This document shows positions 50,539-64,000 of a DNA stretch of 64,000 nucleotides, one piece after another; the stretch's first letter is position 1; every line of letters starts with the position of its first letter. The notes under the pieces were generated by a model. It made no database searches. It was not told the origin of the DNA and saw nothing but the letters and a program-made list of their open reading frames with translations. The position numbers and the translations under genes were made by a program. The stretch is from Isoetes taiwanensis (Eukaryota > Streptophyta > Lycopodiopsida > Isoetales > Isoetaceae), in NCBI GenBank assembly GCA_021234155.1, contig JAJEKV010000053.1:9121798-9185797 (forward strand). The letters run 5' to 3'.

Positions 50539-51430
50539 CAGTGTTGTTTACGTACCCGTATTTTACGTTTACATACGTCCCGTACCTTCGTCACAGTACT
50601 ATACGTACTATACCTATAAGTTGACAGGTCAAATTGAGCTCTTGTTTTATTAATACCGTACTTAACGTATTTAATACGTTTAGTACGTATGATACGTACT
50701 TTAAAAAAAAAAGTGTCCAAATGACATTAGACCAATAGAATTGGTAAAATTATACATTAGGAAAAATACATTAGTATATATTATTATAGAATAGGAGAGT
50801 AAAAAACACATTAGGAGATATCTTCTTGCAAATAAAAACCCAAAACCTCTGCGTTTTCCCCCTCTTTCTTCTTACCCTAGCCGCCAAATCGGAATGGAGA
50901 TGGAGATGCAGACCCACCTTTCTCCTTGTTTTGCCATGGCAGGAGGTAGATCTTCTCCTTAATGCTTCAGTAGCTTGCATTTATGCCAGGAAAGAAATAA
51001 GAGGTCAGCGGCGTTTAATAGCTTCGGATGCAACAAATGAGCAACAATTACTTAAATTTATTTGTCTGTGGGTATAGATTGCAAACTAGAATATATAACT
51101 CTTAAATAGACATATTTTGGATTGAAAACTTTGAGAAATACTTAATTTTCTAGAGTAATATATTCTAGTTCATTATTTAAAACTTGAAGCTCTTCATACT
51201 AGTTGTTATTGCAACTATTGCAACTACAATACAAGAAATAATAGTTTTAAAAAATTACAGGAAGTACTTAACGTACTATACGTAAAGTACGTATTTTACG
51301 TATTTAATAAGTATTTTATAATTTCAAAAAACGTATTTAAAGTACATTTTAAATGAGAGGTATGCATACGGTATTAATACGTTAAGTACATATAATACCC
51401 GTACCGTACTAAACGTACCTGACAACACTG
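50539..51430. mobile_element. Non-autonomous hAT-type element, 892 bp, with 8-bp target duplication
   Basis: Ends CAGTGTTGT and ACAACACTG are inverted repeats. ACCAGGAC flanks both sides (50531-50538 and 51431-51438). Removing the insert restores the LINE reading frame around VLVNGQPSG. TIRs starting CAGTG and 8-bp duplications are hAT features. Both subterminal regions are full of TACGTA-like motifs. No transposase is encoded. Confidence 0.9.
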
Positions 51431-51438
51431 ACCAGGAC

Positions 51439-52059
51439 CGACGCAGATGCTAAGTTATTCATCCCCAAAGCCAACTGAATAAAGTGGGACTCAAATCCCA
51501 TATGGTACATGACTGAGCGCAACCCTTCCCATCTAAGAGAATCATATGCCTTTCTAAAGTCCATCTTGATCATTACACAATTTTGTTTGGAGGCCTGGCA
51601 CCAATGCAGACCTTCCCTGGCTGCAAGGTAGTTATCCAATATGTATCTGCCTGGCAAGAAAGCTGATTGCTCATGCCCAATGACCCTGTTCAAAATTGGT
51701 TTCAAGCGGTTAGCAATAACCTTCATGATTACTTTATAGATGACATTGGTGAATGCAATAGGCCTCCATTCCCCGAGGCTTTGAGGTCTTGGAACCTTAG
51801 GAACAAGAGTGATAAACCCTGCTGCTAGTGACGGGTGTAGAGAACATGACAACCATGCTCCACATACAGCTCTGATGAAGTCCGGTCCAAGCACATCCCA
51901 AAATTCAACAAAGAATTCTGGAGGGAAACCATCTGGCCCAGGAGATTTTCCTGCTGCAAGGGAGCATAAGGTTTTGTAGATCTCATCTCCCTCTATGTTA
52001 TGTAATAAAAGTTGATTTTCTTCTCGAGTAACCTTCCCCCCCCAATCCACTTTAGACAA
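51439..52059 (-). pseudogene. L1 reverse transcriptase, N-terminal half
   Basis: An open frame encodes the finger and early palm of a plant L1 RT, with AAGKSPGPDGFPPEFF, FITLVPKVPRPQSLGEWRPIA and NRLKPILNRVIGHEQSAFLPGR. Motif A, MIKMDFRKAYDSLRW, is close to the hAT insertion. The upstream endonuclease is absent. Confidence 0.87.
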
Positions 52060-55360: not shown

Positions 55361-55547
55361 TGTGTAAGTCCCCAGACTTTTCTCCTTTCAGCTTTCTGCG
55401 ACGATGTGGCGTTCCAAAGACAATTATCGGTCCCCGGGGCGTATCTTTGTCTTTGCCAAATCGCAGCGATACCATACCACCATTTGGCGTTAATGCGTCG
55501 GCGACGTAACGTAGCCAGCGGTAGCCCTAGGGGGCAACTTGCAAGGA

Positions 55548-55720
55548 GTGTGCATTTATTAATGTGCACATTTAACCATGTGCACATTTATCTAGGTGCA
55601 CATTTTCCCATGTGGACACTTTATGCCAAGTGGACCATACCCAAGTGTGCAATTAATGTGCACATTTACCAATGTGCACATTTATTAAGGTGCACACCTT
55701 TCCATGTGGGCACATTTTGC
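55548..55720. repeat. Array of GTGCAC-centred short repeats in the LTR
   Basis: About ten variants of ATGTGCACATTTA follow one another 14-16 bp apart, several containing the palindrome TGTGCACA. They lie just upstream of the TATTTAAG box, where a U3 enhancer would be. Confidence 0.75.
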
Positions 55721-55808
55721 CACCTAGCCATTAAAGGCAAGTGGGCCCATTCCCAATTATCCCACATGCCTAAAGGGGATAATTGGAAACCCTAGCCAAC
55801 CCCTTGTC

Positions 55809-55816
55809 TATTTAAG
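55809..55816 (+). promoter_or_regulatory. Putative LTR TATA box
   Basis: TATTTAAG lies downstream of the GTGCAC repeats and is followed by a leader-like AAGGGAAACCCTAAC. The position fits the U3/R boundary of the LTR. Confidence 0.45.
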
Positions 55817-57087
55817 AAGGGAAACCCTAACTTGCCCATTTTTTGTTCCTAGGGTTTTAGAGCTCTGTTTTGACTGGCTGCCCCAGGGGTCAAAACCGCC
55901 TCCCCAGAACTTGCGAGCGAATTGCCCCATTAGTTTCCCTTGATTCGAGCAGTTTAGCAGGATGGTTGAGCTCAGGTCAGGAGGAGGAGCTCAAGGATCA
56001 GGTATTTCGTCAATTTAATAGCCTAAACCATCTTCTAGTCATTTAATTAGTAGGTTTAGCCTATTAAATTGCCCATAGCAGCCCTCTAGATCTCTAGATA
56101 CCAGACTCTAACTAAAGAACCTAACTCTATGATATAGATTAGATCTTGTTCTTTAGTTCTTCTATGATGTATATGGATGATGTATCTCTATGAACTCCTT
56201 GTATTGGGAAGGGGGGGAGAGACCTAAAGCTTGGTAGTAGATGCTCCTAGATTAGCCTCTCTAGCACACTATAGTTCGGCCTGTGTACAAGAGCCACACA
56301 CAGTTGTGGGTGAAGGGGCCGCACCGGCTTAGAAGGAGGTTCGTGTCCCCGACCCTTCAACGATCCTTCCGGTGTGTAAGGCCTCACCGGGATCATTGTG
56401 ACTAGGTCTAATGGCTTACCACCGAGTGTGGGTAAGGCATGGGCTCGACACCCAGAGTGAAGTGGTGTACACTTTCCAAAGGTTCATCCGAATAAGGGCG
56501 GTGGCCCTCTCTAGTCACCTTGGGTCGAGCATGTAGACCTCACGGAGGGAGTGATCCCTACACCCCCCATCGAACCGGGAGATGCAACCCGGGAATAGCC
56601 CCTTTGGCTATGCCTCCTAAGGGCTTCTGATCCAGTCCCAACACTTTTCAGCCTACTCGCAAAGTGTGCACAAGAGGGGCGGATGGAGTGGACAACCCTA
56701 AGCCATGTTCTTATGCCAGCCAAATCCATTGCCATGAATTCTGTCTGCAATGAACTCTGGAGACCCAAGCCGTCAGTCATTCCCTCGAGTCTGAGCCTTG
56801 GGTAGGACCCCTATGTATGATGCTGATCATTGTCTATGCAGATGTTGGTGCACCACCCTTCGGGGTGGGTATGTGTTTATGTTGTATACTGACATGTATG
56901 TTTACGCTTCCGCAGCTAGGTAGGCCCTGAGGGAGACGGGGTAAAATGACCCCTTCACTCTTCCCACTGGGACTCGTTACGGGTGCAGTGATTGTGGAGG
57001 GCCCTGTATCAGTGTGGAGCTGGTATGGGGGATGAACTCCTGTTTGTATACGGTGGATGCACCGTATGTGAGTAGGGGACGTCACAG

Positions 57088-57099
57088 TGGTATCAGAGC
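57088..57099 (+). other. Primer-binding site for initiator tRNA-Met
   Basis: TGGTATCAGAGC is the standard plant retrotransposon site complementary to the 3' end of initiator methionine tRNA. It begins one base after the CA end of the LTR. Confidence 0.9.
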
Positions 57100-57295: not shown

Positions 57296-57362
57296 GTCTC
57301 ACACGTCGCGCCAGGACAGATAATGAGAATCTCATTTTCGGGCTGGGCGCAACGTGTGAGAC
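57296..57362. repeat. 67-bp hairpin, copy 1 (type A)
   Basis: Arms starting GTCTCACACGT and ending ACGTGTGAGAC pair over about 33 bp with a few mismatches. Type A has GAGAATCTCATTTTCGGGC in the centre. It lies 202 bp upstream of copy 2 and belongs to module 1. Confidence 0.9.
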
Positions 57363-57497
57363 ATTCAGCTTGGAACACACTAAAAAGTCATAAATTACAG
57401 AAAATTAACTTGATAATTCTAAAATTGAGCTAAGAAGTAGTAGAATTGGCGGGTTGCATCCTCAGAAAGTATAAAATTTAGTAGCGGGACCCACCAT

Positions 57498-57564
57498 GTC
57501 TCACACGTCGCGCCAGGACAGAAAATGAACTTCTCATTATCGGTCTGGGCGCAATGTGTGAGAC
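57498..57564. repeat. 67-bp hairpin, copy 2 (type B)
   Basis: Same arms as copy 1 with the variant centre GAACTTCTCATTATCGGTC. It is followed 77 bp later by TATAAATA. Confidence 0.9.
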
Positions 57565-57640: not shown

Positions 57641-57648
57641 TATAAATA
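57641..57648 (+). promoter_or_regulatory. Putative internal TATA box of module 1
   Basis: TATAAATA is preceded by CCCC and followed by a CCCCCCC run and a GCTCTC...GGCGATCTTC leader. It lies 109 bp before the ATG of the H3-like gene. The same elements in the same order recur in module 2. Confidence 0.55.
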
Positions 57649-57749
57649 GATCTAGACCCCCCCATTTCCGCGTCCCTTCCTTAGAAAATCTGCTCTCGTT
57701 TGCCAAGGCGATCTTCTGGCGCATAGCTCGGATCGGCGAACCGTCGAAT

Positions 57750-58986
57750 ATGGCCCCTGGAAAGCGGATCGCTAGGAAGCCCCGCCCCGAGGCGAATCTT
57801 CCAAATGCCAAAGGACCCCATACGATACGAGGGATACCCAAGAACGCTTTTTTCGGCAAATCTTCATCCGAAGAGGGAGGCGCACTGCACCAAAGCGACG
57901 TAACGGAGGTCATAGGGCAGGAGCAGCCGGATGTCATGCAACAAATCCTCGAAGAAATCGCCGAGGAGGAAAGGAGGAGCAAGGAGGAACGAGAGCAGCA
58001 GGGGCAGCCGACCGTCGAAGAACAACTCGAAGCTTGGGCCCGTCTGGAGGAAGCTGAGGAGAGGGAGGAGCAGCAGCAGCCGAAGCTTAGCCCTGCTGAA
58101 GAAGCAGACTCATGGCGCTCATCGCCAAGTATGAAGCCAAAGAGCCCCGCCGAGAGAGGAGGACAAAAAGACGGGAGGACGAAGCTAACCACAAATGCAT
58201 GAAATAAGAGAAAGAGGGCCAAAGGCATTAAGGCGGGCAAGAGAACAGTTGTGAAGGTTGGTAACCGAGCGCAGGGTCCCGTCATCAATGAGCCATCAGG
58301 CAAGCAGACCCCGCCTTCTACCGACGACTCGGACGAAGATTACGTCCCCAACACTGGGGGGGCAAGCTCTTCGAAACCCCCGGTCGTGGAGAAGGAAGTA
58401 CCCGAAAGGTGGCACTTGAGCAGAGCAGCCCGCAGGCCGGCTCCCACCATTCCCGACGGGGATAGGGTCAAAGTCCCACGGCCACAACGGGAGGCGTACG
58501 TGATAGACCCCGTCAAGGTCTATCAGAAGAAGATCAAGGAGCACAACGCTTACATGGCGAAGTGGGAGGCATACAACGCTTACTACCAGGAGCACAGGGT
58601 GAGAACAATTGAAGGCGGACGCCCGACAAAAAGCCAGACCACGGCCGCCGCCACCCGTGCCCAAGCCTCCTGAGCATCGAAAGAAGCGGACCAACAAAGA
58701 AGCGTATGAGCAGAGAGCCCTCAAGGAAATCCGGCACTTCCAGCGAAGTTACGGACTCTTGATCCCCCGGGCACCGTTTCAACGCTTGGTCCGAGAGGGT
58801 ATGCAAGAGTATAACACAGATATGCGGGTGACCGATGAAATGTTGCTGTGCCTACAGGAGGCAGCAGAGGCAAAACTGGTGCAGCACTTTGAAGATTCGA
58901 CGGCCTGCACAGTTCGCGCGAAGAGGGTCACGCTCATGAGACAGGATATGCATCTTGCGAGGCACATCAAGGGAGAACGCCCTTGA
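57750..58986 (+). pseudogene. Long-tailed H3/CENH3-like histone gene inside the retrotransposon
   Basis: One gene is inferred from ATG 57750 to TGA 58986, interrupted by an in-frame TGA at 58200-58202 and a one-base frame change between about 58605 and 58670. The first 120 codons are lysine-rich and then a glutamate-rich predicted coiled coil. After the TGA comes a basic KRKRAKGIKAGKR, possibly a nuclear signal, then an acidic DDSDEDY stretch and a helical basic region. The last 89 residues are a complete histone H3 fold. The TGA could come from CGA by cytosine deamination, as is common in silenced elements. The gene lies between the primer-binding site and gag, so it belongs to the element. 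Long variable tails are typical of centromeric H3. Function is inference. Confidence 0.8.
58609..58986 (+). CDS. Histone H3 fold domain (open frame of the H3-like gene)
   Basis: From 58717 the frame encodes ALKEIRHFQRSYGLLIP and, further on, PFQRLVRE, CLQEAAEAKLVQHFED, RAKRVTLMRQD and a terminal GERP. Placed against plant H3 from memory it aligns without a gap from A47 to residue 135, with about 49 of 89 identities. DNA-contacting R72, R83, R116 and T118 are kept; H113 is arginine, K56 is arginine and K79 is asparagine. HF at 53-54, P63, A65, T85 and LMR at 119-121 match plant CENH3 rather than H3, while loop 1 has H3 length and lacks the extra CENH3 residues. The canonical ARTK tail is absent. 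It would be expected to pair with H4 in a nucleosome. Confidence 0.88.
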   Translation: MKADARQKARPRPPPPVPKPPEHRKKRTNKEAYEQRALKEIRHFQRSYGLLIPRAPFQRLVREGMQEYNTDMRVTDEMLLCLQEAAEAKLVQHFEDSTACTVRAKRVTLMRQDMHLARHIKGERP

Positions 58987-59130: not shown

Positions 59131-59197
59131 GTCTCACACGTCGCGCCCGGACAGAAAATGAGAATCTCATTTTCGGGCTGGGCGCAACGTGTGAGAC
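59131..59197. repeat. 67-bp hairpin, copy 3 (type A)
   Basis: The same type-A hairpin as 57296-57362, located after the H3-like gene. It lies 199 bp upstream of copy 4, nearly the same spacing as in module 1. Confidence 0.9.
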
Positions 59198-59329
59198 CAT
59201 GCCCAAAAATGCCCAAAACAGCTCCAAATTGACCAAATAAGGGGTCAATTCTGCCTAACTCGGCGAGTCCAGTAAGATTAGACCCTTAGATCACCCAAAT
59301 TGATCAAGTTTATCCCATTTAGAGCCCAT

Positions 59330-59396
59330 GTCTCACACATCGCACCAGGGCAGAAAATGAACTTTTCATTATCGGTCTGGGCGCAACGTGTGAGAC
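59330..59396. repeat. 67-bp hairpin, copy 4 (type B)
   Basis: The type-B hairpin with centre GAACTTTTCATTATCGGTC, as in copy 2. The order A then B is kept in both modules. Confidence 0.9.
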
Positions 59397-59587: not shown

Positions 59588-59595
59588 TATAAATA
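59588..59595 (+). promoter_or_regulatory. Putative internal TATA box of module 2
   Basis: TATAAATA is followed by a CCCCCCC run and AAATTTGCTCTC...AGGCGATCTTC, matching the leader in module 1. It lies 124 bp before the ATG of the acidic-protein gene. Confidence 0.55.
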
Positions 59596-59711
59596 GGTCC
59601 CCCCCATTTCTCATTTAACACCCTACAAATTTGCTCTCCACTGCTTAGGCGATCTTCCAGCTCCCTGAGGCGCTCCTGCATCTGTTTGATAGTCTCTTCT
59701 TTGCTAGATCA

Positions 59712-61224
59712 ATGACCACTGCTGACTTCAGGCGATGGTACAGCGCCAGTACCCATGCTACCGAGGCGGATGTCAATGACATCTTCCGAGTCTTTGGGAA
59801 AGAAATAGATGTCCAAGCCACTCTGAATGCAACCCCAGCATATAGACAAGTCTTAGCAGAGTTCCAAGCTAGGTTAGGACCCTCCCTCGTTCAACTTGCA
59901 TAGGCTATTTTGTTCCCCGCCCATCCCTTCAAACAGCCTTGGGCGATGTCCCCAACATCGCCAAGTACTTAACTAACAATAGGCGCAGAGGCTGCCAGAC
60001 TACATGTCCTGACAGTTGACAGGACCAAGTATTTCTCCTATACCGCCGCCCTAGCTATTTTCCTATCCCACCATGCCGAAAACCCAATGGGGGCAACCTC
60101 TATAGGGATGGAGGTGGACCCCATAGCAGCCCAAGCAGAAGAGCGGATGCTTTTGCAGTACCAGCAGGAGCAAGAAGGAAGAGAAGAAGAAGAGGAGTCG
60201 GACGACGAAGAGTACACGGAGCTCGACTCAGACGAAGAACGGCGCCAAGCAGAGGAGGAGCTGGCCAACATGGAGCGGAGCCGGCAGACCCTCAGGATCG
60301 CTCCCCCACTTGAACTAGGCATCACAAGCCTAGCCCCCATCATCATCAACGGAGAGGAGTATTTACTCCTCAGTGACATCCAGAACCTCCCCGAATGCAG
60401 GGAGAGGGAGCTCAGACTTGATGAGTTGCTGCACCAACTACGGCAGCAACCAGAAATGGACGACTTCATCGTCCGAGGAGCCTCAGACTTCCCGCTTCAA
60501 GTGCGAGAAGCCGACACCTACACAGGGGAGTCGACTTCTGATATCCAGGCCTTCAGCAGCATAAGACAGGTTATGGAGGCCGGAGACCTGCCATCGGAAG
60601 AAGAGTTCCTCGCCATCCAGGAACGGATGGGGATCAGAGGCAAGACCACCAGCATCTTGATGCCGAGCCCCTCGACACCACCTCCAACAAGAGGAGCAGG
60701 AATCGACATCAGGCGAGTCGACTCCACAATTGCAGACTACCGGGAGCTGACTGAGATAGAGGTCGACGACTACGCTGGACGGCATAGAACGGGAGGCCAA
60801 ACAAGTGGAGAATCATCTGCGACACACAATGACAGGTCGCTGAGGTACTACCTGCCCCTGCTGCTGGATGGGAGAATAGCGGTGATACACCGCAAATTCG
60901 GCCCACGAGGTGAAGAGGGAGTGTTCATGCTTATTGCACTCTCAAGCTTCGGCAGACATAATAGCGGCAAATGTCGACTATGCTGTTCTAGTGAAGAGAG
61001 CAATGGCAATGGACCTCTTTGACTTCGCCATGCCCTACCGACGGCAGGGAAGATTGGCAGTAGCCGCGGCCTACACCTCCGACCGCAGGGTGGAAGAGTT
61101 GGTGGCGGCCTTGCAGGGCGGGACGTCGACCAATGTCCTTAGGAACTTGGGAGCCTCAATAGGAACGGCCCAAGTTAAGAAGTTCCTAGAGGACAACCCA
61201 TCTTACCGGCGATTTCAAGATTAA
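59712..61224 (+). pseudogene. Acidic protein gene upstream of gag, unrecognised
   Basis: The frame starts MTTADFRRWYSAST at 59712, has stops at 59901 and 59970, and is then open to about 60940. A frame change there leads into a final stretch ending NPSYRRFQD at 61224. A strongly acidic segment rich in E and D lies at about 60175-60245. Downstream are leucine-rich helical parts and YRRQGRLAVAAAYTS near 61040. I find no domain I can name. The acidic run is of the kind seen in histone chaperones, and the gene sits beside an H3-like gene under a matching promoter-like module. A chaperone role is therefore a hypothesis only. Translation is blocked in this copy. Confidence 0.6.
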
Positions 61225-61442
61225 TAGACTCTTGATCCCGGAGATTTTGTACTAAAATATTATATAATATAAATATAATTTCTTTTGCACTTTAAATGTT
61301 TTGTTGATATATTTTGTTCCACAACTATGCCAACAAACCACATACAATGCAAGAGAACAAGTAAAACTAACCATATAGCCATGAATTACTTGTGTATGCA
61401 GCTAGAGGCCTAGACTCAGGGGAACGACAACGCCGAGACCAT
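61225..61442. other. Spacer before gag
   Basis: A short AT-rich intergenic segment. No third copy of the hairpin-TATA module is seen here. Confidence 0.5.
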
Positions 61443-62660
61443 ATGGAAGAACAGAGTCCGCCCAGGCCACCCCCGGCAAGGAACCTGTTTGAGGAATTTG
61501 GACCCATGACCCCAGAAGAGGAAATATCACAGATAAGAACGGACCTTGAGCAGATAAAGGCTTTGCTGGCCGCACAAGCAGGAGCAGGTTCGGTGGGCAA
61601 CGCTCAGTTGCCTCAAGCATCAGCTTGGAAAACAGGCAGGGACAAGAAGAGGAGCAAGAGAAGGAGGTCCTCCAGCTCGGAATCCTCCGACTCAAGCTCC
61701 GATTCGGACTCCGACTCTGAGGAAGAGGAAGAGCAGGCCCAGGACCGAACAGATGGAAGGCAGAGGAACACTGCAGATGGAAGACAGAGGGATACCACAG
61801 ATGGACGACAAAGGGACACAAGAACCTCTGATTACCAGAAGAAGGTAGATTCGGCATTGGGAAATGTTTGGAAGGCCAGGAAGCAATTCTCAGGCGAGAA
61901 CAGGTCAGGCATGGAGGCAGAGGCTTGGCTCGATGAGATGAGTGAATATGGCAATGCTTATGGTATGAAGGACAAGGATAAAGGCAGGGTGGCAACAGCC
62001 AACCTGAAAGGAGCAGCACGCATATGGTGGAAGGGGTATGCAAAGGCCCATGGCTTGAGCAGGGATGCTTGCAGGTTCAGGAAGTTTGCTAAAGCCTTCA
62101 AGCGCCATTACATCCCAAGAGAGCACAAGTCCAGCATGATGCAGCAATTCTATAGGTTGCAACAGGGAAACAAATCAGTCCAGAAATATACAGAGGAATT
62201 CATGAGGCTAAGGCTTTATGTGCCAAAGTTGGGCGAAAAGCATGCAGTGGAAAGCTATATTGAGGGGCTGAATGATGAGATCCGTAAGCTTGTAAGGGCA
62301 ATAAACCCTAAGACAGTATCAGAAGCAGAGTCCAAGGCAATAAGTTTGCAAGGAACAGGGCCTCAGAATAGCGGGCAGAGGCAGCAGTATTATCAGGACA
62401 AAGGCAAGGCAACAGGGAGTTATAGCCCTAGGGCAGCCAGCCCAGGCCCAGCTAGAGCCCCATATGGTGGCAACCAGGGAAAGCAGCAGGAAAAGAAGCA
62501 GGTGTCCTTCAAGGACAAGCAGGGGGGGTCAAACTACTCCAAAGCAGTGCGATCCTTTTTGCAGGCTATGCCCAAGGAAAAGAGGCAGGAGTGCATAGAA
62601 AAGCAGCTTTGCTTTAGGTGCTTCCAGCTCAGGTCATAGGACAGCGAACTGCCCCTACGT
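61443..62660 (+). pseudogene. Retrotransposon Gag with CCHC zinc knuckle, frameshifted
   Basis: The frame has its first ATG at 61443 and is open to a TAG at 62637. The N-terminal third has a serine/aspartate/glutamate-rich low-complexity region and three DGRQR repeats. The Retrotrans_gag domain follows, with EAEAWLDEMSEYG, ARIWWKGYAKA, FKRHYIPREHK and YTEEFMRLRLYVP. It ends in a glycine/glutamine-rich part and the start of a CCHC knuckle, CFRCFQ. The second half of the knuckle, GHRTANC, is in the next frame, so one extra base inside the knuckle causes the shift. Gag would form the particle and bind RNA. Confidence 0.9.
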
Positions 62661-63150
62661 CATGAGTGCGGCACTAGCGGAGTTGGGAGATTGGGACATT
62701 CTGTCTGATGACGACGGCGAGGCAGGCCGCGACTACATCCAGGGTGAGTGTCATATCTTTGCCGCAATAGATACAGAGCAAGCAGAGAGCCAGTATAAGG
62801 TAATTTCTACAGTAGGGAAGGCCAAGGCCAAGTCTTTCATAGTCTTGATAGTGCATCCCCCAGAATGGTTGAAATGTTGAAGTTGAAACCATTAAAGTCG
62901 AAGCCAAGGCCCGTCGTCTTAGCAAGTGGAGCAGTAAGGCAGACGGCAGGTAAGAGAATTAACTTCGACATTGACCTGCCAGGGATTAATATCTAGATGG
63001 GGGCAGAGGTAATGGGCATTGGCAAGTATGACCTGATCATAGGAATGGAGTATCTTGGACCAGCAGGGGCCATCATCGATTGTGGGAAGCGGAAGATGAC
63101 ATTCCCAACGCCCGACGGCAAGATCATTGAGATCACAGGTAAAGAAGTTG
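62661..63150 (+). pseudogene. Retrotransposon aspartic protease region, damaged
   Basis: After the knuckle, an open stretch runs through DWDILSDDDGEAG to KAKSFIVLI. Then a frame change brings DSASPRMVEMLKLKP, where the expected catalytic D-S/T-G reads D-S-A. The region ends with VMGIGKYDLIIGMEYLG, the usual C-terminal motif of Ty3-type proteases, after an in-frame stop near 62994. A small deletion at the active site would explain both the frame change and the missing glycine. The enzyme would have cut the polyprotein but is dead here. Confidence 0.75.
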
Positions 63151-64000
63151 TCCCCATCATGCAGTGTATGTCTTCTAAGCGACTGTTCAAGTGCATCAAG
63201 AGCGAGCAGGTAGCTTACATCTTCAAGCTTGAGATTGAAGAGCCGGAGTTGGAAGAAAGCAAAGAAGACAAGATGCTCAGCAAGTTGCCGAAGCAAATAG
63301 CTAAGTTGATCACGGAATTCCACGATCTCTTCCCAGATGAGATCGAGCACCTCCCTCCTTACAGGGGAGTCGAGTGTGAGATAGCACTCGAACTGGGAAC
63401 GAAGCCGACAAGTAAGGCCCCATACAGAATGAGGACGCAGGAGTTAACGGAGCTAAAGAAGCAATTGCAGGAGTTGCTCGACCTAGGCTTCATTAGACCT
63501 AGCATCTCGCCGTTTGGAGCGCCTATTCTGTTTGTTAAGAAGAAGGATGGCAGTTGAACAAGCACACCATCAAGCACAAGTATGCGCTCCCCAGATCAGA
63601 TGACTTGATGGATCAGCTCCAGGGTGCAAAGGTCTTCTCCAAAATTGACTTAAGGTCAGGTTATCACCAAATCCGGATAAAGGAGGAAGATATCCATAAG
63701 ACAGCTTTCAGAACCAGGTATGGGCACTATGAGTTCACGGTAATGCCTTTCGGCTTATCGAATGCCCCCGCGACGTTCATGAGGCTCATGAACGACATCT
63801 TCAGGGAGTTCTTGGACACCTTTGTGATAGTATTCTTTGACGACATTTTGGTGTATAGCAGATCCCTTGAAGAACACGTACAACACTTAAGGAGAGTGCT
63901 GGAGAAATTGAAGAGGCACCAGTTGTACGCCAAGTTGTCGAAGTGTCACTTCGCAACGGAGAAGGTGGAATACCTGGGTCATGTGATCTCAGCGGAAGGA
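63151..64000 (+). pseudogene. Ty3/gypsy reverse transcriptase, N-terminal part, broken and running off the edge
   Basis: The RT begins after a linker and shows the entry motif [28 protein letters not shown] deletion then removes the segment before [13 protein letters not shown] and changes frame at 63555. Downstream, open to the window end, are [32 protein letters not shown] and the catalytic [10 protein letters not shown] at about 63830-63856, followed by [11 protein letters not shown]. The Asp pair is intact. RNase H and integrase, if present, lie beyond the window. Confidence 0.9.

Follow-up and report, generated by a model that had tools for sequence, protein, structure and literature searches.

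A chromodomain-bearing Ty3/gypsy chromovirus in the genome of Isoetes taiwanensis carries, upstream of gag, a gene whose product ends in a complete histone H3 fold. By the tests made, the element itself is a chromovirus, and the new part is the histone gene (ORF-A). The copy described here lies in a stretch of 64,000 nucleotides, hereafter called the window. The gene recurs ahead of gag in many other copies, belonging to five lineages, which answers the initial annotation's concern that it might be a one-off insertion. By our sorting, a core histone is carried in at least six lineages, at some two thousand places found by exact motifs of the element type, and these would be the first retroelements to provide a core nucleosome component. 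The H3 that the elements bring with them may alter the chromatin around them.

Architecture of the element

The features of the window copy are given in Table 1. The full order is LTR, primer-binding site (PBS), two hairpins, TATAAATAG, ORF-A, two hairpins, TATAAATAG, ORF-B and gag, followed by protease (PR), reverse transcriptase (RT), RNase H, integrase with chromodomain and LTR. The histone gene therefore sits between the PBS and gag of an LTR retrotransposon, as the initial annotation had placed it, with ORF-B additionally intervening before gag. The order gag, PR, RT, RNase H and integrase was found in the window element, the PR being weak by Pfam (E = 0.14). Behind the RT, in the stretch L009 downstream of the window, Pfam recognised RT_RNaseH_2 (1e-25), Integrase_H2C2 (1e-20), rve (3e-10) and SH3_Tf2-1 (1e-22), and, at the C terminus of the integrase, a chromodomain (Chromo PF00385, 1.8e-10; window element only). 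In this chromodomain (L009:1363-2178), two of the three aromatic residues of the methyl-lysine cage look replaced.

Table 1. Features of the chromovirus copy in the window
Feature	Position	Strand	Remarks
5' LTR	55511..57086	+	left edge uncertain by 15-20 bases; right edge ...GACGTCACA
Primer-binding site TGGTATCAGAGC	57088..57099	+	just after the LTR
Hairpin 1 of leader repeat	57296..57362	+	z -7.6
Hairpin 2 of leader repeat	57498..57564	+	z -7.6
TATAAATAG, putative internal promoter (TATA box) of ORF-A	57641..57649	+	predicted
ORF-A, H3 variant gene: tail start, long linker, histone fold	57750..58986	+	broken in window copy
H3 histone fold, H3 residues 47-135	58717..58983	+	PDB and Pfam matches
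Hairpin 3, second copy of leader repeat	59131..59197	+	z -10.4
Hairpin 4, second copy of leader repeat	59330..59396	+	z -6.1
TATAAATAG, putative internal promoter of ORF-B	59588..59596	+	predicted
ORF-B, second accessory protein	~59712..61224	+	broken in window copy
gag	61392..62636	+	PF03732 Retrotrans_gag 9e-18, Ty3_capsid 3e-16
Protease region	62997..63554	+	RVP_2 E 0.14, below cut-off; region seen again in other copies
Reverse transcriptase	63554..64000, continues past window end	+	RVT_1 3e-36

The 5' LTR and the 3' LTR, which lies downstream of the window (L009, 3155-4723), are 95.5% identical (1,587 alignment columns, 42 mismatches, 22 gap openings), and no target-site duplication was readable at the window element. 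The PBS, which we take to be of the initiator-tRNA-Met type, was found as the exact 12-mer in 9 of 11 loci of the window lineage (lineage A) and in the C and E loci; it was not found upstream of the fold in the B locus and the D locus (one locus each). Fragments of LINE-type reverse transcriptases, recognised by eye, adjoin the element at 51409-52059 of the window (minus strand) and on the minus strand of L009 (a frame of 562 codons).

The four hairpins, similar to each other and 67 nt long, are arranged in two pairs (57296-57564 and 59131-59396), each with TATAAATAG and a similar leader behind it, so that the hairpin-TATA leader occurs once ahead of ORF-A and once ahead of ORF-B. This doubling is expected if one duplicated cassette, with a putative promoter role, drives both accessory genes. 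The TATAAATAG motif precedes ORF-A in all 11 lineage-A loci read; in front of ORF-B it is exact in the window and in 6 of the 9 lineage-A loci that have ORF-B in place. Since only lineage A showed this leader, we rejected it as a general trait of the family.

The window copy has a stop at 58200-58202 and a change of frame between ~58600 and 58716. With this stop, and with the fold in another frame than the N-terminal part, this copy is broken for the ORF-A protein.

The histone fold: identity, copies and constraint

The initial annotation had recognised, in 58717-58983, an H3 fold alignable without gaps from residue 47 to 135, and both sequence and profile searches bore this out. The frame 58714-58983 encodes 90 residues, of which 2-89 form an ungapped alignment with H3 chain positions 48-135 (initiator Met counted); a PDB sequence search with this frame matched 174 distinct sequences, with a best E value of 3.1e-25, and Pfam PF00125 (Histone) matched 58609-58983 with an E value of 2.2e-26 (92.9 bits, for a cut-off of 26.4). 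The H3 match of the window fold is far above chance, and a complete H3 fold was also found in one copy each of lineages B, C, D and E. A single-sequence structure model of the window fold was poor (pLDDT 62) and was set aside. Residues C110, H113, R116, D123 and L126, which build the H3-H3' bundle of the nucleosome, are those of the host H3 in all tabled copies of A-E, except for H113R in the window copy, which looks like a private change. The DNA-contact residues of B-E are nearly all as in the host H3. The conservation of bundle residues and DNA contacts fits a whole nucleosome better than a mere H4-binding stub. The lineage-A fold differs from H3 by R49K, R63P, K79N and F84V, so that a lineage-A nucleosome could be unusual.

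The search covered an assembly of 1,658,258,908 bases in 1,110 contigs, in which we distinguished at least six lineages, under labels of our own (A to F, A being that of the window), and read the gene order in five. With the window fold as query, we obtained 8,878 first-look candidates; the best 150 of these 8,878 were scored, and all had an identity of 92% or more from residue 1 or 2 to residue 90, with a stop in 8 of the 150. The exact back-translated motif AKRVTLMRQDM of lineage A occurs at 782 places and the motif AKRVTIM[PT]KDL of its relatives at 1,215, with no occurrence of either reversed control. Matches to a CENH3 query gave 18 further loci, which constitute lineages B-E and all have the fold (two of them partial), while lineage F is one fragment (L100). 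One-off insertion and chance match were thus both rejected by the copy searches, the motif counts and the sample drawn with non-coding DNA that is described below. A KDI pattern (100 matches) was dropped as a count of host H3 genes, since it takes in element copies: all four of the repeated types fetched look like lineage D.

Among the lineage-A loci, read at 9-10 kb, ORF-A, ORF-B and gag were found in this order in 9 of 11, and PR and RT followed within the fetched stretch in 8 of these 9 (not in L010). The exceptions were L011, with gag and ORF-B inverted, and L019, without ORF-B and gag. In B, C, D and E (one locus each), the fold is followed on the same strand by gag, PR and RT. The identity of B-E to lineage A is 54-56% in the fold, 50-53% in gag and 61-87%, depending on the piece, in the RT. 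Two loci, L102 and L105 (scaffolds C907 and C380), represent sub-lineages of A, with 38-44 silent and 13-15 amino-acid-changing codons among 88 when counted against two main-type copies.

Ranking by protein similarity biases a sample towards low dN, and copies were therefore sampled by the non-coding spacer behind the gene. Forty spacers were scored, including that of the window copy, and the DNA beside the other 39 was fetched. The fold was present next to the spacer in 38 of the 39, several being aligned only in part. In eleven of these copies the aligned sequence was free of stops and indels (for L084 and L089, over a partial alignment); 9 had stops and 24 had indels, two classes that overlap and in which some of the indels are alignment gaps. 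Among the 39 copies and the window, changes seen once comprised 46 non-silent, 17 silent and 6 stop changes, and those common to at least three copies comprised 7 non-silent and 42 silent changes and 6 multi-step changes left unclassed (common versus private, Fisher P = 3.5e-10; changes found in just two copies and codons at most two positions from a gap were excluded). With a ratio of 0.76, private changes seem nearly neutral, and the ratio of 0.047 among propagated changes indicates strong constraint.

Pairwise dN/dS across copies agrees with this. Among ten lineage-A loci it was 0.037 for the fold, 0.184 for tail and linker, 0.182 for ORF-B and 0.130 for gag, and it was 0.108 for PR (nine loci) and 0.063 for RT (six loci). 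The fold is the most constrained of the six regions compared and is under strong purifying selection. In similarity-ranked sets, which are biased to low dN, the values for the fold were 0.032 in A, 0.025 in B, 0.029 in C, 0.054 in D (one pair) and 0.016 in the host H3. In comparisons of one lineage with another, most if not all pairs have a saturated dS.

Tail, second accessory gene and origin of the fold

The initial annotation had described the long tail as unrelated to that of H3, a view that the related copies contradict. Among 19 lineage-A loci surveyed (L001-L008 and L010-L020, L001 being the window), 14 have a matching gene start, all but L001, L004, L007, L008 and L014. Twelve of the 14 begin with MARTKQTARK, one with MACTKQTARK and one with MARTKTNARK; the start of the window copy is MAPGKRIARK. 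The H3-type tail peptide of lineage A is ARTKQTARKPRR. Codons 2-9 of the tail, eight of the nine that follow the ATG, each have silent variants that leave the peptide unchanged. These loci come from a similarity-ranked search, and its bias extends to the tail only to the degree that the tail decays along with the fold. The predicted lineage-A protein is an H3 with the first nine residues of the tail, a long and variable insert of ~300 residues and then the fold. In the window lineage, the tail start ARTKQTARK is under constraint at the peptide level, which points to tail readers or modifiers. From its likely start, the ORF-A product has ~400-450 residues; the H3-like length of ~135 residues without inserts was not observed.

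The K9 segment is kept in A and missing in B-E. None of the B-E copies read starts with ARTKQTARK, and E begins with MARTKGTKS. In the place of the H3 tail, the ORF-A of B-E has a common N-terminal domain of ~200 residues (RIPYP...ERFLIKLN...YRYLG; L034, L044, L039, L050). Homology between this domain and the lineage-A linker was rejected (hhalign probability of 1.7%, versus 99.8% for the folds).

ORF-B is kept across lineages, with homologues in B, C and E and an identity of 25% between A and B; none was seen in the one D locus. It forms open frames of 481-529 codons in L017:2522-4108 (minus strand), L051:4951-6393 and L052:3542-5047 (minus strand), and none of these three open copies has a Pfam match. 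For ORF-B and the N-terminal domain of B-E together, we found no Pfam family, a weak PHROG match in one copy (E = 0.038), nothing of note in the PDB (two proteins tried) and no confirmed relative among viral contigs. A third extra ORF lies ahead of gag in lineage E (L054:6686-7195) and lineage B (L051:6743-7090); the E copy has no Pfam match.

The initial annotation had also pointed to several positions shared with plant CENH3, together with a loop 1 of canonical H3 length. The alignment agrees on loop 1, and the evidence on kinship to CENH3 is divided. In its favor are the CENH3-like motifs of lineage A (ALKEIRHF, LLIP.AP and VTLMR) and the position of this lineage in the trees, on a long branch beside two plant CENH3s, with supports of 83/86 or 91/91 that are below the level starred by the tool. 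Against it are the identity of the window-lineage fold, which is 58% with the host H3 versus 51-52% with CENH3, the tail start, and loop 1, the longer version typical of CENH3 being absent. The final proline that replaces the last alanine of H3 in A, B, C and E copies (by eye) was counted on the H3 side as well. Lineages B-E form one clade beside H3 (97/97; 87/84 when lineage F is added). A single clade of all element folds was not rejected (p-AU of 0.21 and 0.16), nor was a tree that parts element folds and H3 from the CENH3s (p-AU of 0.08). There may have been one capture followed by a fast branch, or two captures.

No host CENH3 was found in the genome with the Arabidopsis CENH3 fold as query: the eight places followed up were six copies of B or C elements, one host H3 with its tail and one lineage F fold. 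The back-translated C-terminal motif of CENH3 had no match in the genome. The kinship was therefore tested against CENH3s of other plants only.

Possible roles and known systems

We lean towards the reading that this accessory gene of the chromovirus encodes a nucleosomal H3 variant that would change chromatin to the benefit of the element. In lineage A, the protein would be made from its own message, the putative TATA box lying ~110 bases ahead of the ATG. It would pair with host H4 and be handed to nucleosomes by the host H3 chaperones. The H3 of the resulting nucleosomes would carry a bulky, element-made arm in lineage A, and in lineages B-E an element domain would replace the normal H3 tail. 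Whether confined to element DNA or more widespread, such nucleosomes could weaken H3K9/K27-based silencing or otherwise favor transcription of the element. Among such effects we favor relief of K9/K27 silencing, given the loss of those sites in B-E and the bulky arm added in A; since the fates of the tail differ, with K9 kept in A and lost in B-E, a single K9-based effect cannot explain all lineages. Entry into nucleosomes and contact with tail readers would be in keeping with the kept bundle residues and with the constraint on both the fold and the tail peptide.

Some of this evidence could also serve other roles. Nucleosomes with the ARTKQTARK tail might be a landing mark that the integrase chromodomain of the family reads, leading to insertion into marked chromatin. 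The chromodomain of the window element and the peptide-level constraint on the tail start, read in different copies, speak for such targeting. We nevertheless regard it as fairly unlikely: B-E are without the K9 segment, two cage aromatics look replaced in L009, and copies are dispersed. Among the matches listed, 31 lineage-A motif places lie on scaffold C907 (53 Mb), spread over 0.5-49 Mb, and their distribution did not depart clearly from uniform (Kolmogorov-Smirnov P = 0.09; one scaffold, covered to ~49 of 53 Mb). Repeat density is described as homogeneous in the host genome paper (PMC8566536). The initial annotation's suggestion that the histone might steer integration to centromeres thus found no support; its other suggestion, that the element marks its own chromatin, may hold. 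A centromere-restricted family is likewise unsupported, the copies on C907 showing no sign of clustering at a centromere, as far as element DNA rather than protein is concerned. Should the family bring both the mark, an H3 variant whose ARTKQTARK tail can be modified, and its reader, the integrase chromodomain, which seems to us a rather slim prospect, the chromatin of the element would be chemically recognizable to the element itself.

The protein could instead act as a decoy or poison histone that sequesters H4, chaperones of H3, or tail readers and methyltransferases, blunting silencing in trans without forming stable nucleosomes. A fold close to H3 and a lineage-A tail start that mimics H3 would suit this role, but bundle residues would not be needed there and are kept, making it unlikely. 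We likewise rate as unlikely that the H3-like protein condenses cDNA or RNA of the element in a virus-like particle or preintegration complex, where nucleosome-like contacts would serve instead of in host chromatin. In the lineages read, the gene has kept its place ahead of gag, basic stretches precede the fold, and viral histones of the Marseillevirus type do package virus DNA. Yet H3 alone needs H4 for folding, and no gene resembling H4, H2A or H2B was found in the element (no Pfam match for three copies of ORF-B and one of the third ORF); packaging would moreover have no use for the tail readers or modifiers to which the constraint on ARTKQTARK points. That a captured host H3 or CENH3 sequence merely multiplies as a passenger is hardly credible. 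Many copies are broken, including that of the window, as a passenger's would be, but changes common to several copies are mostly silent and no other region compared is as constrained, so that the selection tests contradict this explanation for the fold, provided that the sampling was unbiased. The histone gene makes it testable whether a mobile element rewrites the nucleosome to escape silencing or to steer integration, and the family supplies, for study, H3 variants shaped by natural evolution, in which the tail has a huge insert or has been swapped.

The initial annotation knew of no retrotransposon family with such a gene, and our search of the open-licence PMC literature (no preprints) agrees, having returned no retroelement-encoded histone. 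Nor is one reported in a retroelement in the passages searched from the literature on accessory ORFs, giant transposons and virus-encoded histones. The word "histone" is absent from the main texts of the genome papers of I. taiwanensis (PMC8566536) and I. sinensis (PMC10541799). The chromoviruses of non-seed plants, as described in excerpts of PMC2864245, share with the Isoetes element the LTRs, gag, PR, RT, RNase H and integrase with C-terminal chromodomain, and occur in lycophytes. No histone gene is mentioned in these excerpts, outside which the word "histone" occurs once in that text; in Isoetes two genes, apparently three in B and E, precede gag.

Captured or accessory genes have precedents, again judged from excerpts. 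In orchids, Ty3/gypsy elements bearing an ORF for an AlkB-like m6A demethylase (PMC9289625) likewise have a captured host-type domain at the C terminus of an ORF, kept across subfamilies, but it is an RNA-acting enzyme, in elements of the Tat lineage with a tRNA-Arg PBS. Conserved accessory ORFs are also known from plant LTR retrotransposons (PMC7264820) and from the ORF3 captures of bdelloids (PMC5408684). Those of plants differ in lying mostly between pol and the 3' LTR and in having functions that are mostly unknown, and "histone" does not occur in the main text of either paper.

Core histones are known in DNA viruses, according to excerpts of a review of viral histones (PMC9145170), in whose main text "retrotransposon" does not occur. 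As portrayed there and in parts of PMC5423620, the bracovirus H4 (CpBV/CvBV-H4) is the single core histone of a mobile agent, has an added tail, joins host nucleosomes and changes expression, as we propose for the Isoetes protein. It differs in being an H4 and in belonging to an agent of viral descent with DNA circles, not to a retroelement; it acts in the parasitized insect. Single viral H3s offer a further parallel in the excerpts of PMC9145170, as does the nudivirus Orf1, a protein of 1,111 residues whose last 200 form an H4-H3-like doublet, so that a histone fold ends a long unrelated protein; the carriers of both are DNA viruses.
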